Positions 9,359-57,205 of a stretch of DNA of 64,000 bases are shown here, in pieces; the first letter of the stretch is position 1; every line of letters begins with the position of its first letter. Location of the stretch: the NCBI RefSeq assembly GCF_028553805.1, contig NZ_CP067140.1, positions 1,240,001 to 1,304,000 on the forward strand, given 5' to 3'. Made by a program: the position numbers and the translations under genes. This DNA comes from Paracoccus saliphilus (GTDB lineage: Bacteria > Pseudomonadota > Alphaproteobacteria > Rhodobacterales > Rhodobacteraceae). The notes beneath the pieces are model-generated. The model did no database searches and was not told the DNA's origin. It saw only the letters and a program-made list of their open reading frames with translations.

Positions 9359-10852
9359 ATGTCTGATGCAAGCATTGAGGCCGGGAAGCTTGGGGCGGTG
9401 CATACCGTTGACGAGATCTTGCCCGCGCCAAAGCTCATCACTTTAGGGTTCCAGCATGTGCTGGTCATGTATGCGGGTGCGATCGCGGTTCCGCTGATCG
9501 TCGGCAGGGCGCTGCAATTGTCGGCCGAGGAGGTCGCATTCCTGATCTCGGCCGACCTGTTCGTCTGCGGGATCGTATCGATCATCCAGAGCCTTGGCAC
9601 GACACAATATTTCGGCATCAAGCTGCCGGTGATGATGGGCGTCACATTCGCCTCTGTCGGGCCGATGGTGGCGATTGCCTCGGCCACTCCGGGGCATGAA
9701 GGGGCAAGGGCGCTGTTCGGCTCGATCATCGCGGCGGGCCTGATTGGCATCCTGCTTGCGCCCCTGGTCAGCAAGATGCTGCGCTTCTTTCCGCCTGTGG
9801 TGACGGGAACGCTGATCCTGACCATCGGTATCAGCCTGATGCCCATCGGAATCAACTGGATCTTCGGGTTGCCGGTCGGACCGACCGCGCCCAAGATCGT
9901 CGCGCCGGAAGCACAGGAATGGCTCAACCAGGCGATGGCGGCGGGTGGCGTGCCCGAGAGCGTGCAGCTTGCCCCGACGGTGAAGAACCCGGCCTATGCC
10001 TCGGCCCAGAGTATCCTGATCGCGGTCCTGGTGCTGGGTACGATCCTGATCGTGTCGCGCTATGCCAGGGGCTTCCTCGCCAATATCGCGGTGCTGATCG
10101 GCATCGCTGTCGGCGGCGTGGTGGCAGCGATGCTGGGCATGATGCATTTCGAGAAGGTCGGAGAGGCAAGCTGGTTCGCCCTGATCAAGCCGCTGCATTT
10201 CGGCATGCCGATATTCGATCCGATCATGATCGTCACCATGCTGCTGGTCATGCTGGTCACGATGATCGAATCCACCGGCATGTTCCTTGCCCTCAGTGAT
10301 ATCTGCAAGAAGCCGCTGACCCAGAAATCGCTGGCCGCCGGTCTGCGGGCCGACGGGTTGGGCACGGCGATCGGTGGGCTGTTCAATACCTTCCCCTATA
10401 CCTCCTTCAGCCAGAATGTCGGCCTTGTCGGCGTCACCGGCATCCGCTCGCGCTTTGTCTGCGTGGCTGGGGGCGCGATCATGATCGTGCTGGGGCTCAT
10501 CCCCAAGATGGGTGCGCTGGTGGAAAGCCTGCCGACGACAGTTCTTGGCGGGGCCGGGCTGGTGATGTTCGGCATGGTCGCGGCGACTGGTGTGCGCATC
10601 CTTGCTCGGGTCGATTTCGTGAACAATCGCCATAACCTGTTCATCGTCGCGATCTCGGTCGGGATCGGGATGATCCCGATGATCGCGCCCAATTTCAATC
10701 AGTGGATGCCGCATGCGATCCACCCGTTGATTCATTCCGGCATCCTGCTGGCGGCGATCTCGGCGGTGCTCCTGAACTGGTTCTACAATGGTGCGCCGCA
10801 TGTCGATGAAGACAGCGTACGCGAGGCAGGACATGCATCGGATGCCCACTAA
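9359..10852 (+). CDS. NCS2-family purine (xanthine/urate) permease
   Basis: The 497-residue, multi-spanning protein has the nucleobase-ascorbate transporter signature QNVGLVGVTG and many hydrophobic helices, so it is an inner-membrane proton-coupled purine importer. A substrate of xanthine, urate or a related oxopurine is inferred from the neighbouring 8-oxoguanine deaminase and urate-degrading genes. AAGGGAGGT lies 4-6 bases upstream of the ATG. It starts only 35 bases after bhcD but serves a different pathway; whether it is read with the bhc operon is unclear. Its end overlaps the next gene's start. Confidence 0.85.
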   Translation: MSDASIEAGKLGAVHTVDEILPAPKLITLGFQHVLVMYAGAIAVPLIVGRALQLSAEEVAFLISADLFVCGIVSIIQSLGTTQYFGIKLPVMMGVTFASVGPMVAIASATPGHEGARALFGSIIAAGLIGILLAPLVSKMLRFFPPVVTGTLILTIGISLMPIGINWIFGLPVGPTAPKIVAPEAQEWLNQAMAAGGVPESVQLAPTVKNPAYASAQSILIAVLVLGTILIVSRYARGFLANIAVLIGIAVGGVVAAMLGMMHFEKVGEASWFALIKPLHFGMPIFDPIMIVTMLLVMLVTMIESTGMFLALSDICKKPLTQKSLAAGLRADGLGTAIGGLFNTFPYTSFSQNVGLVGVTGIRSRFVCVAGGAIMIVLGLIPKMGALVESLPTTVLGGAGLVMFGMVAATGVRILARVDFVNNRHNLFIVAISVGIGMIPMIAPNFNQWMPHAIHPLIHSGILLAAISAVLLNWFYNGAPHVDEDSVREAGHASDAH

Positions 10853-12185
10853 GCTGCTGATCCGCAACGCCGATGCCGTCGTCACCATGGACGAGGCACG
10901 GCAAGAGATCGCAGGCGGCGATGTGCTGGTCGAGAACGGAAAAATCGTTGCGGTGGGCCAGGGCCTGCCGCGCGATGATGCCGAAATCGTCGAGGCCGGG
11001 GGCTGTGTTGTCACACCCGGCCTCGTGAACACCCATCACCACCTGTTCCAGACCCTGACCCGTGCCGTTCCAGCCGCCCAGGATGCTGCGCTTTTTGGTT
11101 GGCTGCGGACGCTCTATCCAATCTGGTCGCGGATGGGGCCCGAGGATATCCGCCTGTCGGCGCAGGTCGGCCTGGCCGAGCTTGCGCTGTCGGGCTGCAC
11201 CTGCAGTTCGGATCATTTGTATTTGTTTCCAAATGGTTCGCGGTTGGATGACAGTATCGAGGCCGCGGCGGATATCGGCATCCGGTTCACCGCCACGCGC
11301 GGGGCCATGTCAATCGGCGAGAGCAAGGGCGGCTTGCCGCCCGATGCGCTGGTCGAGGACGAGCCCGCGATCCTGCGCGACAGCGAGCGGGTGGTGGATG
11401 CGTTTCACGATGCGGGCGAGGGAGCGATGGTGCAGGTGGCGCTGGCGCCCTGTTCGCCCTTTTCTGTCAGCCGGGAACTGATGCGCGATGCTGCGGTGCT
11501 GGCGCGGGAAAAGGGCGTGCGTCTGCATACCCACCTGGCCGAGAATGACGAGGATGTCCGTTATTCTCTGGATAATTTCGGAATGCTGCCAGGGGATTAT
11601 GCGGAAAGTCTTGGTTGGACCGGGGATGATGTCTGGCATGCCCATTGCGTGAAACTGTCGGACCCGGAGATCGATCTTTTCGCCCGGAGCGGAACCGGCG
11701 TGGCGCATTGCCCCTGCTCGAACGCGCGGCTGGCCAGCGGCATCGCCCCGGTGCGGGCGATGCGTGACAGGGGCGTGCCGGTGGGGTTGGGCGTAGATGG
11801 CTCAGCCTCCAATGATTCCAGTCACTTGGGCGCAGAGGCGCGACAGGCGATGCTGGTTGCCCGGCTGAAGGACGGCCCCGCGGCGATGGGGGCGCGCGAG
11901 GCGCTGGAGATCGCTACGCTTGGTGGTGCCCGGGTGTTGGGACGCAGCGATATCGGCGCCTTGCGTCCGGGTATGCAGGCCGATCTGGTCCTGTGGGATA
12001 TCAATGAGTTACCTGCCGCCGGTCAATGGGATCCGGTCGCGACGCTGGTGTTCTGCGCCCCGATCCGGCCCAGGGCGGTCTATGTGCGGGGCAGGGCGGT
12101 GGTCGCGGACCATCAGCTTTTGACCGCCGATCCGCGTGACTTGCGGACGCGGGCGCAGAAGGCTGTGGCCCGGCTGGCAGGATAG
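10842..12185 (+). CDS. 8-oxoguanine deaminase-like amidohydrolase
   Basis: This 447-residue amidohydrolase has the metal motif NTHHHLFQTLTR, a second metal histidine in HTHLAEND, HCVKLSD, and GVDGSASNDSS with the catalytic aspartate. The NTHHHxxQ form is typical of 8-oxoguanine deaminases and hydroxy-triazine hydrolases rather than ordinary guanine deaminase. It would convert 8-oxoguanine to urate, matching the urate-using genes downstream. The start at 10842 has AGGCAGG about 11 bases upstream; an ATG at 10833 is nearly as good. It overlaps the permease by 11 bases. Confidence 0.78.
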   Translation: MPTKLLIRNADAVVTMDEARQEIAGGDVLVENGKIVAVGQGLPRDDAEIVEAGGCVVTPGLVNTHHHLFQTLTRAVPAAQDAALFGWLRTLYPIWSRMGPEDIRLSAQVGLAELALSGCTCSSDHLYLFPNGSRLDDSIEAAADIGIRFTATRGAMSIGESKGGLPPDALVEDEPAILRDSERVVDAFHDAGEGAMVQVALAPCSPFSVSRELMRDAAVLAREKGVRLHTHLAENDEDVRYSLDNFGMLPGDYAESLGWTGDDVWHAHCVKLSDPEIDLFARSGTGVAHCPCSNARLASGIAPVRAMRDRGVPVGLGVDGSASNDSSHLGAEARQAMLVARLKDGPAAMGAREALEIATLGGARVLGRSDIGALRPGMQADLVLWDINELPAAGQWDPVATLVFCAPIRPRAVYVRGRAVVADHQLLTADPRDLRTRAQKAVARLAG

Positions 12186-12186
12186 C

Positions 12187-12320
12187 GCAACAGCGGCGTG
12201 CGTTGCGTCCCTGTGAGACGCGCAACGCCATGCCCGGCTTGACACGGGAAATACCGGGTTTTCGGCTGCACAGCCCGTACACCACGCGTGCACAACCTGT
12301 ACACAGGGCGTACACAGGCA
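12187..12320 (-). repeat. 134-bp dispersed element with 11-bp GTGYAC units, copy 1
   Basis: Read on the minus strand from 12320, this block aligns without gaps to 56597-56730; a hand count gives about 95 of 134 identical bases. Its first part is five consecutive 11-base units, each starting GTGTAC, GTGCAC or GTGCAG (12315 down to 12261). The block lies between the convergent ends of the 8-oxoguanine deaminase and Hint genes. The frame LPVYALCTGCARVVYGLCS is open through it, but no good start or ribosome site is seen, so I treat it as non-coding. I do not recognise the family. Confidence 0.7.
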
Positions 12321-12470
12321 GCGTGCGTTGCGCAGCGAGGATCAGATGTTCGTGATCGGGAACCTCGCCGCAGGCATGATCGGTTCCAGCGGACCGGTGA
12401 TCGTGGCCGAAACCCGCTAGCATGCCGCCCAGAACCCTTGTGGATACCCATGATCTCGACCGGCGGATGT

Positions 12471-13592
12471 TCAGCCCGTCAAAATATGCCGGATATGTTT
12501 TTTGCGTTCCGCGAATGGTCTTGCCGGCGCTGCCTGAAAGTTTCCGTCGGCGATCCCGGGGAAGATGGCGGCGATTTCATCGCGTCCTTCTTGCGTGATT
12601 GCCTGCAATGCCTGGCTTCCAAGATACAGGCTTTCTGAAAGGCATCCATTGCTCCAGAGAATTTCATGCTCGTCCAGCAGGACATGATAATAGGTGATCT
12701 CTGCGAGATCGGAGACATCGATTCCCGGGAGTTCGGTCAGCTTCTTGACCGGCACCAGGATTTCGTCGGTGCCGAACAGATCGATTGCTTGCGAGGATCG
12801 GAGCATGACGCGATGCTGCGGCGATAATGTCAGCGGTATCGAGGGCCGGTTATCGCCAAGAGCCCCGGCCTGGATGGTCACAGGGCGAAGTTTCGGGTTG
12901 GCTTCAAGTTCCGACCCAGAGATCGATCGGGACCCGATCCAGCGAATGGGCTGGTAGCCATTGTCGAATGTCAGAAGCAGGTCCCCGATCCGTAGATCCT
13001 GCACGTCGCGCAGGCCATCGGCGGTGTCAAGGAAGGTTCCGGCAGCGAAACAGATGGGGAAGGGGGCGTTCTGGCTGCTTAGCAGGGTACCACCATACAA
13101 ATACCCATTGTCAATTTTGCCGATCGTGTAGCTTGTCAGGCGCACACCGGGATGATCCTTGATATAGCCAGCAATTTTCAGTCGGAGATGGTTGATCGGG
13201 TTCACCAGGATGTCGCCCGTCAACATTTCGCGATCGGATGTCCCGAGGAAGAATAACTGGGCACCTTTTGGGTGAACTACCTCGTGATCGTCATCGAAAT
13301 GCAGGGTTATTGCCGCCTCTCTAAACGCTTGTACGGAATGAGACACGCCATCCACCACGACGCGCGTGCCCTTGGTGGAGTCATGTGGCGCTTCGTATTC
13401 CATGACTATGTTGTCCCAAAGGATTCCTTCGTTCTGATTGCCGTCTTTAAAGTCGAAATGGGTGAGAGTTTCCGATACATTGAAAGTCGGGTTCTCTAAT
13501 TCATCAGGCGGTTGGATAGGGTTGGAATTCATTTCCGTGTCGGGGAATACATCCCTGATGATGAATGACTTGATCCCGTAAATATCTGGCAT
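12471..13592 (-). CDS. Hint-domain (hedgehog/intein-fold) protein
   Basis: The 373-residue product has an uncharacterised N-terminal part of about 180 residues and then a Hint domain of the bacterial type: CFAAGTFLDTADG with the nucleophilic cysteine at about residue 181, LRIGDLLLTFDNG, QPIRWIGSR, and LSPQHRVML. Such domains cleave their own polypeptide at the cysteine; in Rhodobacterales they occur in secreted or surface proteins of unknown role. No classical signal peptide is visible. The start at 13592 has AAGGAAGCAGG about 9 bases upstream. It sits inside a purine-degradation locus without an obvious link. Confidence 0.82.
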   Translation of the reverse strand: MPDIYGIKSFIIRDVFPDTEMNSNPIQPPDELENPTFNVSETLTHFDFKDGNQNEGILWDNIVMEYEAPHDSTKGTRVVVDGVSHSVQAFREAAITLHFDDDHEVVHPKGAQLFFLGTSDREMLTGDILVNPINHLRLKIAGYIKDHPGVRLTSYTIGKIDNGYLYGGTLLSSQNAPFPICFAAGTFLDTADGLRDVQDLRIGDLLLTFDNGYQPIRWIGSRSISGSELEANPKLRPVTIQAGALGDNRPSIPLTLSPQHRVMLRSSQAIDLFGTDEILVPVKKLTELPGIDVSDLAEITYYHVLLDEHEILWSNGCLSESLYLGSQALQAITQEGRDEIAAIFPGIADGNFQAAPARPFAERKKHIRHILTG

Positions 13593-13904
13593 AACTGATA
13601 ACCTGCTTCCTTGATCCGCGACAATCCGGATGATTTGTTTCGGAGCATGAGGGAAGCACATGAAATCAGAGATTTATACTTAATGAACAAACCTTTAAAC
13701 ATTTTACGGACCTGTCGCATCCATATGGGTGCAACCTCGGAGCCACCCTTGGGAGGACATCCGATGTCACCGGGACTGACGGCTGTCACGTAGCCCGCCC
13801 CACCAATTTTCTATGAAAATTATAGACTGCCTTGCCTTCACGCCCTCTCGTCTTACCGGCAGGATCGGTTATCAATGAATTAGTGATAATCAGGGGAGGC
13901 GCAG
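13593..13904. other. AT-richer gap upstream of the Hint gene and uraH
   Basis: This 312-base divergent gap must carry the promoters of the Hint gene (minus) and of uraH (plus). It is visibly richer in A and T than its surroundings around 13660-13720 and 13800-13890. A 60-codon frame from 13611 on the plus strand has no convincing ribosome site and resembles nothing I know. No clear promoter pair could be singled out. Confidence 0.4.
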
Positions 13905-50024: not shown

Positions 50025-50735
50025 ATGAGAATTTTGCTAGTAGAAGATGACCCCAGCACCGCCCGCGCCATCGAACTGATGCTGGTTTCCGCCAGTTACA
50101 ATGTTTTCGTCACCGATATGGGTGAGGAAGGCATCGATCTGGCAAAGCTTTACGATTACGATCTGATCCTCCTGGATCTGGACCTGCCCGACATGAATGG
50201 CATGGAGGTCGTGCGGAATATCCGCCTCGCCCGGATCGATACGCCGATCCTCATCCTGACCGGCTCGGATGACATGGAAGACAGGCTGCGCGGTTTCGGC
50301 TTCGGGGCTGACGATTACATGACCAAGCCCTTTAACCGCGAGGAGTTGCAGGCCCGTATCCGCGCCATCGTGCGCCGTTCGCAGGGGCATAGTCAGGCGA
50401 TCATCCAGATCGGCGAGATCACGGTGAACCTTGATGCCCGCGCGGTCGAGGTGCGGGGCAGGCCGGTTAATCTGACCGGCAAGGAATACCAGATCGTCGA
50501 GCTTCTGGCGATGCGCAAGGGCACCACGCTGACCAAGGAGATGTTCCTCAACCATCTCTATGGGGGCATGGACGAACCCGAGTTGAAAATCATCGATGTC
50601 TTCATCTGCAAGCTACGCAAGAAGCTGTTCGAGGCGCTTGGCTATGACAGCCCGATCGAAACGGTCTGGGGGCGCGGCTATGTGATGCGTGACCCGGCTC
50701 CCGTGGAAGAGAGGAAGGTAGCCGTCGGAGGCTGA
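50025..50735 (+). CDS. ctrA: Cell-cycle response regulator CtrA
   Basis: The 236-residue OmpR-type regulator has a receiver domain with the phosphoacceptor aspartate at about residue 51 ([16 protein letters not shown]) and a winged-helix C-terminus ending [20 protein letters not shown] and VWGRGYVM. It is the master regulator of motility, division and gene-transfer-agent genes in alphaproteobacteria. The sciP gene and TTAA sites lie directly upstream. Confidence 0.96.
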
Positions 50736-55285: not shown

Positions 55286-55343
55286 GAGCCCGGCACAATC
55301 CCGAAGGTTGCGCCCATGGCCCGGATCTGGTCTTGTGAGCCGT

Positions 55344-55413
55344 GACGGGGGCGCCCATCCGGGCTGAGATGCACCCTTTGAACCTGAACCAGATCATGCT
55401 GGCGGAGGAAGTC
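55344..55413 (+). promoter_or_regulatory. TPP (THI-element) riboswitch
   Basis: The conserved thi-box signature is present: GGGGGCGCCC then GGGCTGAGATGCACCC, TTTGAACCTGAACCAGATCA, and the closing CTGGCGGAGGAAGTC. These form the pyrimidine- and pyrophosphate-sensing arms of the TPP riboswitch. It precedes thiD by about 55 bases, and the GGGGGAGG ribosome site of thiD could be hidden upon TPP binding. Confidence 0.93.
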
Positions 55414-55468
55414 GCGTTGCCGTCATGGCCTTCACATGTCGCCCGCGTGCCGCGCCGGGGGAGGCAAG

Positions 55469-56263
55469 ATGATTCCGAATATTCTGTCGATCGCGGGCTC
55501 CGATCCTTCGGGCGGGGCGGGAATCCAGGCCGATCTCAAGGCGATTTCGGCCAATGGCGGCTATGGCATGGCCGCGATCACTGCCCTGACCGTGCAGAAC
55601 ACGCAGGGCGTCAGCGCGGTTCAGATGGTGCCGCCGGATTTCGTGGCGGCGCAGATCGGGGCGGTTTTCGACGATATCCGCGTCGATGCCGTCAAGATCG
55701 GCATGCTGGGGGATGCGGCGGTGATCGCTGCCGTGGCGCGGGCGCTGGAGGGGCGGGGTTGTCCCATCGTGCTGGACCCGGTGATGGTTGCCAAGGGTGG
55801 CGACCGGCTGCTGGCGGTCGATGCAGTTGCGGCACTGCGCGAGTTGCTGATCCCGCGCGCCACGATCATCACCCCGAACCTGCCCGAGGCCGCCGATCTG
55901 CTTGGATGCGCCGAAGCGCGGGATCGCGCGGGGATGGAGGCGCAGGCAAGTGCTTTGATGGACCTGGGGCCGCAGGCGGTCCTGCTGAAGGGTGGGCATC
56001 TGGGAGGGGCCGACTCGCCGGATCTGTTGGTTAGCGCGAATCGGATACAGTGGTTGGAGAGCGCGCGCCACGCGACTCGCAACAGCCATGGAACAGGATG
56101 CACGCTGTCTTCGGCACTGGCCACGCAGCTGGCCTTGTCGGAGGAGGTTGGACAAGCCGTGGAAGCCGCAAAATCATATGTTTACAGGGCATTGATTGCC
56201 GCTGACCGGCTTCGGGTCGGGCAGGGACACGGCCCCCTGGATCATTTCTGGGCGCTTCGATAA
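55469..56263 (+). CDS. thiD: Hydroxymethylpyrimidine (phosphate) kinase
   Basis: The 264-residue product has IAGSDPSGGAGIQADLKAIS at the N-terminus, GDRLLAVDAV, and the C-terminal GTGCTLSSALATQLA with the anion-hole motif of the ribokinase fold. It phosphorylates HMP and HMP-P in thiamine synthesis or salvage. GGGGGAGG lies 4-5 bases upstream of the ATG. The upstream riboswitch controls it. No other thi genes are beside it. Confidence 0.95.
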   Translation: MIPNILSIAGSDPSGGAGIQADLKAISANGGYGMAAITALTVQNTQGVSAVQMVPPDFVAAQIGAVFDDIRVDAVKIGMLGDAAVIAAVARALEGRGCPIVLDPVMVAKGGDRLLAVDAVAALRELLIPRATIITPNLPEAADLLGCAEARDRAGMEAQASALMDLGPQAVLLKGGHLGGADSPDLLVSANRIQWLESARHATRNSHGTGCTLSSALATQLALSEEVGQAVEAAKSYVYRALIAADRLRVGQGHGPLDHFWALR

Positions 56264-56536: not shown

Positions 56537-56596
56537 TTTGCCGAGATCGATTGCACTGGCGTCACGCAAAGGTGAAGACGGCAGGGAAGCGTGCGT

Positions 56597-56730
56597 TGCC
56601 TGTGTACGGGTTGTGTACGCCCTGTGCATATCTGGTGTACCGGTTGTGCAGCCCGAAATCCGGCATTTACTATGTCAGGCGGCGGCCGCCGTTGCACATG
56701 ACAACGGGGCGCAACGCTCGTAACCGTTGC
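56597..56730 (+). repeat. 134-bp dispersed element with 11-bp GTGYAC units, copy 2
   Basis: It aligns without gaps to the minus strand of 12187-12320. The first part (56602-56656) is five 11-base units beginning GTGTAC, GTGTAC, GTGCAT, GTGTAC and GTGCAG. The element lies between a terminator and the convergent 3' end of the NifU/SufU-like gene. The frame LPVYGLCTPCAYLVYRLCS is open through it, as in copy 1, but there is no start with a ribosome site near. Confidence 0.7.
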
Positions 56731-56761
56731 GTGGTGTTTTCCGAATGCGCTGCGGGAAGGG

Positions 56762-57205
56762 TCAGGCCCCTGCCTGCGCCTCGTCCATGGCCGCGAGTGT
56801 CGCTTCCCATGCCAGCAGGATCGAAGCATGGCGGTTCGGGTATTCCCGCGCCGGCAGCAATGCCTCGAGTTCAGCAAAGGGCGCGCCCGGCGCCTCTCCA
56901 CCCTGTTTCAGCATGGATTTCAGCTGGTCGCGGGTCGTCTCGATTTGCTCGCGCGTTTGGCCGATGACCGCCGAGCCGAGCACGGAGGCTGAAGCCTGCC
57001 CTAGGGCGCAGGCGCGGACTTGTTGAGCGAATTCAGCTATTTGATCATCTTGCACGATGACGTCCACGGTCACCGAGGACCCACAATGGGGCGAGCGGCG
57101 CATGGCGCTGCCTTCGGGGGCGGTCAGCCGCCCCTGATGCGGGATCGAGGTGGTCAGCGCCAGAATCCGGCGCGAGTAGAGTTGCATCAGATCGCTATCG
57201 CTCAT
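56762..57205 (-). CDS. NifU/SufU-like iron-sulfur cluster scaffold protein
   Basis: The 147-residue product has the NifU-N fold: an N-terminal helix with LMQLYSRRILALTTSIP, HCGSSVTVDVIV, and VRACALGQASASVLGSAVIG with a conserved cysteine. The first two cysteines (HCGS and RACA) fit scaffold ligands; a third typical Cys near the C-terminus is not seen. It fits Fe-S or sulfur relay together with sufE elsewhere in the window. It is divergent from hisI. Confidence 0.78.
   Translation of the reverse strand: MSDSDLMQLYSRRILALTTSIPHQGRLTAPEGSAMRRSPHCGSSVTVDVIVQDDQIAEFAQQVRACALGQASASVLGSAVIGQTREQIETTRDQLKSMLKQGGEAPGAPFAELEALLPAREYPNRHASILLAWEATLAAMDEAQAGA

Follow-up and report, generated by a model that had tools for sequence, protein, structure and literature searches.

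Dispersed non-coding cassettes with 11-bp direct-repeat arrays in Paracoccus saliphilus and related arrays in other Rhodobacteraceae

Two similar blocks in a 64,000-nucleotide window of the Paracoccus saliphilus genome (the whole stretch of DNA that was analysed) belong to a real, large Paracoccus repeat family, which we found nowhere described and which is built on a wider class of arrays. The repeated cassette is about 146 bp long and non-coding. A sequence-only model, built from an alignment of 31 copies, finds it at no fewer than 70 places in the genome with E-values of 1.8e-16 or better, all on contig C1 (4.38 Mb). With a probability of roughly 0.45, we infer that the cassette is a DNA-level assembly site for a putative DNA-binding protein, which would bind head to tail, and that in Paracoccus it serves as a boundary at gene ends.

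The preliminary description of this DNA presented the blocks as a 134-bp pair that aligns without gaps, in opposite orientation, at about 71% identity. A recount agrees, with 95 of 134 positions identical (70.9%). The local score of one block against the other is 79, compared with a mean of 26 for random pairs; the maximum of this control is uninformative, because some draws landed on the locus itself. The blocks are real but too short, since the cassette extends beyond them (Table 1). The five 11-bp units claimed for each block are present in both copies. On the minus strand, the core of copy 1 at 12266 is degenerate (CTGCAC), while the cores of copy 2 start at 56602, 56613, 56624 (GTGCAT), 56635 and 56646 (GTGCAG). 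Copy 1 begins at the base that directly follows the stop codon of an amidohydrolase gene, and the GCAAC and GTTGC boxes by this stop codon are kept in the alignment of 70 copies. The neighbouring genes bear out that both window copies lie between gene 3′ ends. To the left of copy 2 the gene caller placed a short ORF on the minus strand; the annotatable neighbour, which ends at 56263, lies on the plus strand. On the far side of the copy 2 gap, a TPP riboswitch (55337-55427, plus strand, 64 bits) precedes the phosphomethylpyrimidine kinase gene.

Table 1. Features of the two cassette copies and their surroundings (window positions)
Feature	Position	Strand	Basis or remark
Amidohydrolase gene ending at copy 1	10788-12185	+	PF01979, E 6.8e-56
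Cassette copy 1	12186-12332	-	model match 110.8 bits, E 9.8e-33
GCAAC and GTTGC boxes of copy 1, adjoining the stop codon	12187-12206	+	sequence
Second GCAAC box of copy 1	12222-12226	+	sequence
Place of the short hairpin (consensus CCAGCAAATGCTGGG), then TTTT, copy 1	12244-12263	+	sequence; 70-copy consensus
Array of copy 1, five 11-bp units (cores 12266, 12277, 12288, 12299, 12310)	12266-12320	-	sequence
GTTGC box of copy 1, past the array	12327-12331	+	sequence
Hint_2-domain gene, 3′ end toward copy 1	12471-13661	-	PF13403, E 9.5e-50
ctrA, intact	50025-50735	+	within the window
Phosphomethylpyrimidine kinase gene, other neighbour of copy 2	from 55469		Pfam search
Cassette copy 2	56586-56731	+	model match 85.5 bits, E 7.5e-25
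Array of copy 2, five 11-bp units	56602-56656	+	sequence
GTTGC, GCAAC and GTTGC boxes of copy 2	56691-56730	+	sequence
NifU_N-domain gene, 3′ end toward copy 2	56762-57205	-	PF01592, E 6.9e-07

The matches far exceed chance, and the number of copies is a lower bound, since 150 of 1456 candidates were scored. The next model matches are six at E 0.011-0.3, four of which overlap known copies on the opposite strand. The model search found no cassette on the second contig, C2 (approximately 0.24 Mb). A DNA search of the P. saliphilus genome with copy 1 gave 46 matches, corresponding to about 40 real places. Rfam, searched at gathering scores, has no match at the locus, and no description of the repeat family was found in the open-access literature searched, although its absence is not thereby proven; to this extent the earlier remark that no named family has such a layout stands.

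Starting at the stop codon, the 70-copy consensus consists of GCAAC, GTTGC, about 20 variable bases and a second GCAAC, followed by a short hairpin (CCAGCAAATGCTGGG), another stretch of about 20 bp, the array with its CGTRCACAnnn units and lastly AGGCAGCGTGCGTTGC. The hairpin is followed by a T-run in part of the copies only. Measured from the array, the usual upstream distances of GCAAC are 53-54 and 87-88 bp; GTTGC stands 72-73 bp before the array and 11 bp after it. Pairwise identity among the copies averages 67% (range 51-85%) and amounts to 75% in the array columns and 63% elsewhere. Unit logos reveal direct repeats of 7-8 conserved and 3-4 variable bp at 11-bp steps, and the distance between cores on the same strand (up to 40 bp) is 11 in 195 of 199 cases. 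In the logo of 262 P. saliphilus units, whose core GTGYAC was fixed by the search itself, the two bases before the core and the one after it are moderately conserved and the last two vary. A count of strict cores that includes the terminal GTGCAG gives five units in 26 copies, four in 36, three in seven and two in one. By eye, the alignment shows arrays lacking 11 or 22 bp in 7 of the 70 copies. A coding origin, left open in the preliminary description, fails because these shifts in unit number and further indels are not multiples of three. The same description proposed a non-coding repeat with helix-phased units, and this is upheld by at least 70 copies with 11-bp phasing; far from being absent elsewhere, the copies are numerous, and the array is their best-kept part. 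Neither solo GCAAC hairpins nor solo arrays occur outside the elements in 537 kb of P. saliphilus DNA chosen around elements. A TGACGTnnCGTCA-like palindrome just beyond the array end distinguishes a subfamily of 10 of the 70 copies (L063, L068, L069, L072, L073, L076, L082, L086, L092 and L101), several of which have GTTAAC farther out.

Gaps were typed with a purpose-written hexamer gene caller. The 70 P. saliphilus copies occupy 32 convergent, 33 tandem and five divergent gaps, and four overlap a called ORF. Element-free gaps of at least 100 bp (n = 222) comprise 29 convergent, 114 tandem and 79 divergent ones. The convergent excess (32/70 versus 29/222) has a Fisher p of 4e-8 and the divergent deficit (5/70 versus 79/222) one of 1.5e-6, in a comparison whose gaps come partly from the same loci as the elements and in which the element itself makes its gap longer. 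The suggestion that the repeats sit between 3′ ends and away from promoters is thus right as a tendency but not as a rule, given the 33 tandem and five divergent copies. A gene 3′ end is found no more than 60 bp from the GTTGC end in 45/70 copies and from the array end in 5/70. Of the 32 copies in convergent gaps, 28 have their GTTGC end closer to a gene 3′ end than their array end (p 2e-5), with a median distance of 17.5 bp for the former versus 179.5 bp for the latter. We prefer this end-distance test to the orientation count of 53/70, which contains 32 convergent copies that meet it trivially; among tandem copies the orientation (21 versus 12) is not significantly biased (p 0.16).

Genes flanking the cassettes are diverse, with 200 Pfam families in 133 flanking proteins and the commonest family in five, so a single regulon was not seen. 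Hint_2-domain proteins were found on 5 of the 133 sampled element sides. With a view to a replication-linked layout, GC skew was sampled at 20 stretches and indicated no clear origin or terminus.

The fate of individual copies was followed in a sister species (G018; 0.8 Mb read), in which the flanks are 80-95% identical. Both flanks are syntenic at 11 of the 70 P. saliphilus sites. At these sites, one copy is intact (94% identical, with four cores and their spacers unchanged), one is short by exactly 22 bp of array, one has large deletions and eight are missing, three of these with end remnants recognizable by eye. Two arrays are left in the G018 DNA read. None of the eight element-free sites has a target duplication or is a clean empty site, and the pattern looks more like decay than clean insertion. 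Since most of the compared copies are gone in G018, the cassette is dispensable. Among 30 genomes with the gene, the copy 1 site is filled only in P. saliphilus; therefore gains also occur, or the others have lost the copy.

The cassette model matches at least 19 of 36 other Paracoccus genomes versus none of 24 genomes taken from other families in the class (E 0.01), and at least 48 of 125 Paracoccus genomes including P. saliphilus (E 1e-6); these counts are low estimates, with at most 51 and 25 candidates scored per genome. Within the family, at least 14 of 295 genomes, P. saliphilus included, have the cassette (E 1e-5; 10 candidates scored in each). Outside Paracoccus the array alone is shared, in 30 loci read from seven genera, and several of these arrays lie a few bases past a stop codon. 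The free-gap pattern GTGTACN{2,8}GTGYACN{2,8}GTGYAC matches 20 of the 295 family genomes, and 73 of the 79 matches listed from outside P. saliphilus are 28 nt long, i.e. two 11-bp steps; read backwards, the pattern gave about a dozen matches in total.

A scan for four cores at 11-bp steps, using one genome per species, returned at least 120 stretches. Among the 80 loci listed are 74 that we take, by their names, to be from Rhodobacteraceae (76 rows, as arrays L180 and L253 each appear twice). The other six (L195, L202, L215, L218, L227 and L236) come from records of other phyla and may reflect chance, other repeats or contamination. The 51 non-Paracoccus GTRCAC arrays comprise 29 tandem ones, split 15 and 14 by orientation, eight convergent, four divergent, three inside a called ORF and seven undecided; Paracoccus rows were set apart in this recount (5, 4, 9, 1 and 4 undecided), and in the tandem split one twice-listed array was taken out. 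The convergent excess in the four-core loci comes mostly from Paracoccus, and outside this genus there is no strand bias and a weak convergent excess. Terminator-like hairpins accompany 9 and 6 of 79 other-genera arrays on the two sides, a slight enrichment over a background of 3% per side.

Different genera also have arrays beside the same genes, named here from a reading of their translations. In G316, Planktomarina and Paracoccus aestuariivivens, the array lies 9-13 bp past the stop codon of a gltD-like gene. Palleronia, Yoonia and SKW120 have one between a lipoamide-dehydrogenase-like gene and the gene next to it, and both G316 and G344 have one adjacent to a chorismate-mutase-like gene. 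Such single cases outweigh a tally of recurrences, because second and third neighbours also give cross-genus matches. gltD was found in 118 family genomes, and the DNA past it was read in 30. None of these 30 stretches has two in-phase GTRCAC cores. Four have other 11-bp arrays, with cores GTATGG (L341), GTATGA (L359), GTCGG passing into GTATGG (L339) and GTGCAN (L348), and 15-18 matches of 22 at lag 11. Over all 30 stretches, lag 11 is the sole clear excess among lags 6-16, a modest one (z 2.3, several other lags being at about -2).

These arrays led to a search for GTATG three times at 11-bp steps. The P. saliphilus genome has no match, but 21 of the 295 family genomes do; overlapping matches number 126 in G127, 69 in G205, 49 in G206 and 30 in G131; the reversed-pattern control is uninformative, GTATG being identical when read backwards. 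Thirty rows of GTATG loci, in which two arrays appear twice, comprise 19 tandem (7 and 12), four convergent and three divergent placements, three inside a called ORF and one undecided. At L433 and L448, the GTATG array continues into oppositely oriented units (GTCATAC or CATAC), so arrays of mixed orientation exist. Mutual exclusion of the two cores was rejected: they occur in 20 and 21 of the 295 genomes, with one genome in common (G337) versus 1.4 expected by chance. No genome with at least ten matches of one core kind had ten of the other. The preliminary description envisaged a dimer bound to a palindromic core. GTGCAC is indeed palindromic, but GTGTAC is not, and the dimer finds no support as the general mechanism because other genera use the non-palindromic cores GTATGG and GTATGA at the same period.

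GTTAAC boxes accompany part of the arrays. In intergenic DNA no farther than 120 bp from the 51 GTRCAC arrays outside Paracoccus, GTTAAC is 18-fold denser than in the intergenic background of the same loci (25 in 7.5 kb versus 9 in 51 kb), and it is present at 18 of these arrays. Near GTATG arrays it is 9-fold denser (8 in 3.2 kb versus 3 in 11 kb), while near P. saliphilus arrays the excess is twofold only. GGATCC, GAATTC, AAGCTT and CATATG display no comparable excess near GTRCAC arrays. Around 79 arrays, the distance from an upstream GTTAAY box to the first core is 30-32 bp in 10 of 21 cases and 42-43 bp in three, and the 25 downstream boxes cluster near 10, 22, 33 and 47 bp. The upstream box of GTATG arrays lies at 29, 31 and 31 bp (n = 3; G206 twice and G330).

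In the favoured reading, a putative DNA-binding protein would bind the units head to tail on one helix face and build a short nucleoprotein filament on the array. At Paracoccus gene ends, such a filament might stop or insulate transcription and so form a boundary, and the cassette could perhaps also be a nucleoid site. OmpR/PhoB-type regulators would fit the geometry of the array. Their sites, among them the PHO box and those of mycobacterial PhoP, are reported to be 7-bp direct repeats separated by 4-bp spacers, on which the protein binds head to tail; the affinity of PhoP is higher for three and four motifs than for two (PMC4832192). The units of SARP sites are reported to be 11 bp long (PMC5930380). 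OmpR/PhoB-type operators thus have direct repeats at an 11-bp step (approximately 7 bp plus a 4-bp spacer) in common with the array, whose GTRCACA-N4 resembles GTTCACC-N4, the motif quoted for Streptomyces coelicolor PhoP. However, they are found at regulon promoters, whereas the cassettes are scattered among unrelated genes, many of them close to gene ends, with 5/70 in divergent gaps. Moreover, the array core shifts between genera, whereas the conserved OmpR/PhoB-type regulators compared do not.

Six genomes encode 13, 12, 9, 10, 11 and 9 proteins with the DNA-binding domain PF00486, and five ortholog groups are common to the genomes compared. The recognition helix is identical in CtrA and one other group; two of the remaining three groups have conservative changes and one is variable but not by core, being alike in G205 and G309. 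An OmpR/PhoB-type regulator that follows the core was therefore not found among these five groups. Two OmpR/PhoB-type response regulators of one genome, at L451 and L455 (G000:C1:1891528 and 3139472), have the same 230-residue frame and DNA-binding domain, and look PhoB-like in sequence.

Other systems of repeated sites share some of these traits. ParR of plasmid R1 is reported to require at least two 11-bp repeats (PMC9426499), and the ParR/parC complex to wrap into a helix (PMC5016525). ParR/parC centromeres are direct-repeat arrays like the cassette, but there is one locus per plasmid, by parM/parR, whereas the cassettes are dispersed over the chromosome in at least 70 copies, with none on the second contig. 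BldC of Streptomyces, a developmental regulator, is reported to form a cooperative multimer on DNA direct repeats (PMC5859096), and its likeness to the array lies in this.

The main rival to the protein-assembly reading is that the cassette is a REP- or MITE-like mobile repeat, in which the array and boxes would be recognition sites of transposase type and gene ends harmless insertion spots. We consider this origin unlikely, and it is compatible with a boundary role. REP/BIME and MITE elements are dispersed short intergenic repeats, often found just past stop codons, as is the cassette. A mobile origin would suit the 70 or more copies that are about 67% alike, their patchy occurrence (48/125 Paracoccus genomes, with very different numbers), the copy 1 site filled in P. 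saliphilus only and the GCAAC/GTTGC boxes close to both ends. These boxes are inverted with respect to each other. REP/BIME elements have a palindromic REP unit and a RAYT transposase. The core of the cassette, however, is a direct-repeat array, which occurs without the cassette in other genera, recurs beside the same genes in different genera and is the best-kept part, rather than the ends alone. Against a MITE speaks that no target duplication or clean empty site was seen at the eight G018 sites, in spite of the boxes near both ends, and the three with remnants are deletion-like.

It appears improbable that the cassettes are sites of the CtrA network, at which CtrA or a partner binds the GTTAAC boxes, the arrays or both. 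The CtrA site, reported as TTAA-N7-TTAAC (PMC7200025), shares the 11-bp step. GTTAAC is enriched at fixed distances, ctrA is intact in P. saliphilus, and best-hit orthologs 71-74% identical are encoded in the four other-genus array genomes compared. In G018, with its decaying copies, ctrA is truncated to its last 69 residues in mid-contig, with unrelated DNA before it (L511). As a lead, this co-loss amounts to a single event, seen in one genome with 94% completeness. As a direct reader of the core CtrA is disfavoured: its recognition helix does not differ between GTRCAC and GTATG genomes, and therefore the reader is probably another protein. The array cores are GTRCAC or GTATG, not TTAA-N7-TTAA; GTTAAC is a flanking box at part of the loci, and only twice as dense near P. 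saliphilus arrays. Slightly less probable still is an element of the 3′ untranslated RNA, i.e. a terminator, a Rho entry region or a source of small RNA. It would account for the same end pointing toward the stop codon in P. saliphilus and for the short hairpin (5-bp stem, 87% of cells paired) with its T-run in part of the copies. An intrinsic terminator would have a G+C-rich hairpin with a T-run behind it. Pairing is slightly above that of shuffles, with seven two-side-changed cells reached by 6/500 and 3/500 shuffles, but the covariation term is just -0.86 kcal/mol (31 copies), and RNA structure is weakly supported only. Rfam offers no match at the locus, and upstream and downstream alike the GTTAAC distances stay in register with the array. 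Beside tandem genes, the arrays outside Paracoccus favour neither strand, which speaks for DNA, not RNA.

More tentatively than the assembly-site reading of the cassette itself, we propose a chromosomal Rhodobacteraceae system of nucleoprotein arrays with a fixed 11-bp step, many of them with GTTAAC at a fixed distance. The units of a genome would switch core together between genera, even past gltD, following a fast-changing putative reader, and loss of the system, as in G018, would leave whole sets to decay. Its cores would be GTRCAC, GTATGG and GTATGA, and perhaps GTCGG and GTGCAN. At the least, a defined repeat family becomes available for the annotation of Paracoccus genomes. If the proposal is true, it would add an undescribed class of chromosomal sites, with dozens per genome in some species, to a large and much-studied family. 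The site code would differ by genus while the step of one helix turn stays constant, a natural experiment in the joint change of a DNA-binding protein and its many sites, and the arrays would offer a foothold for studying transcription boundaries or the layout of the nucleoid in alphaproteobacteria.
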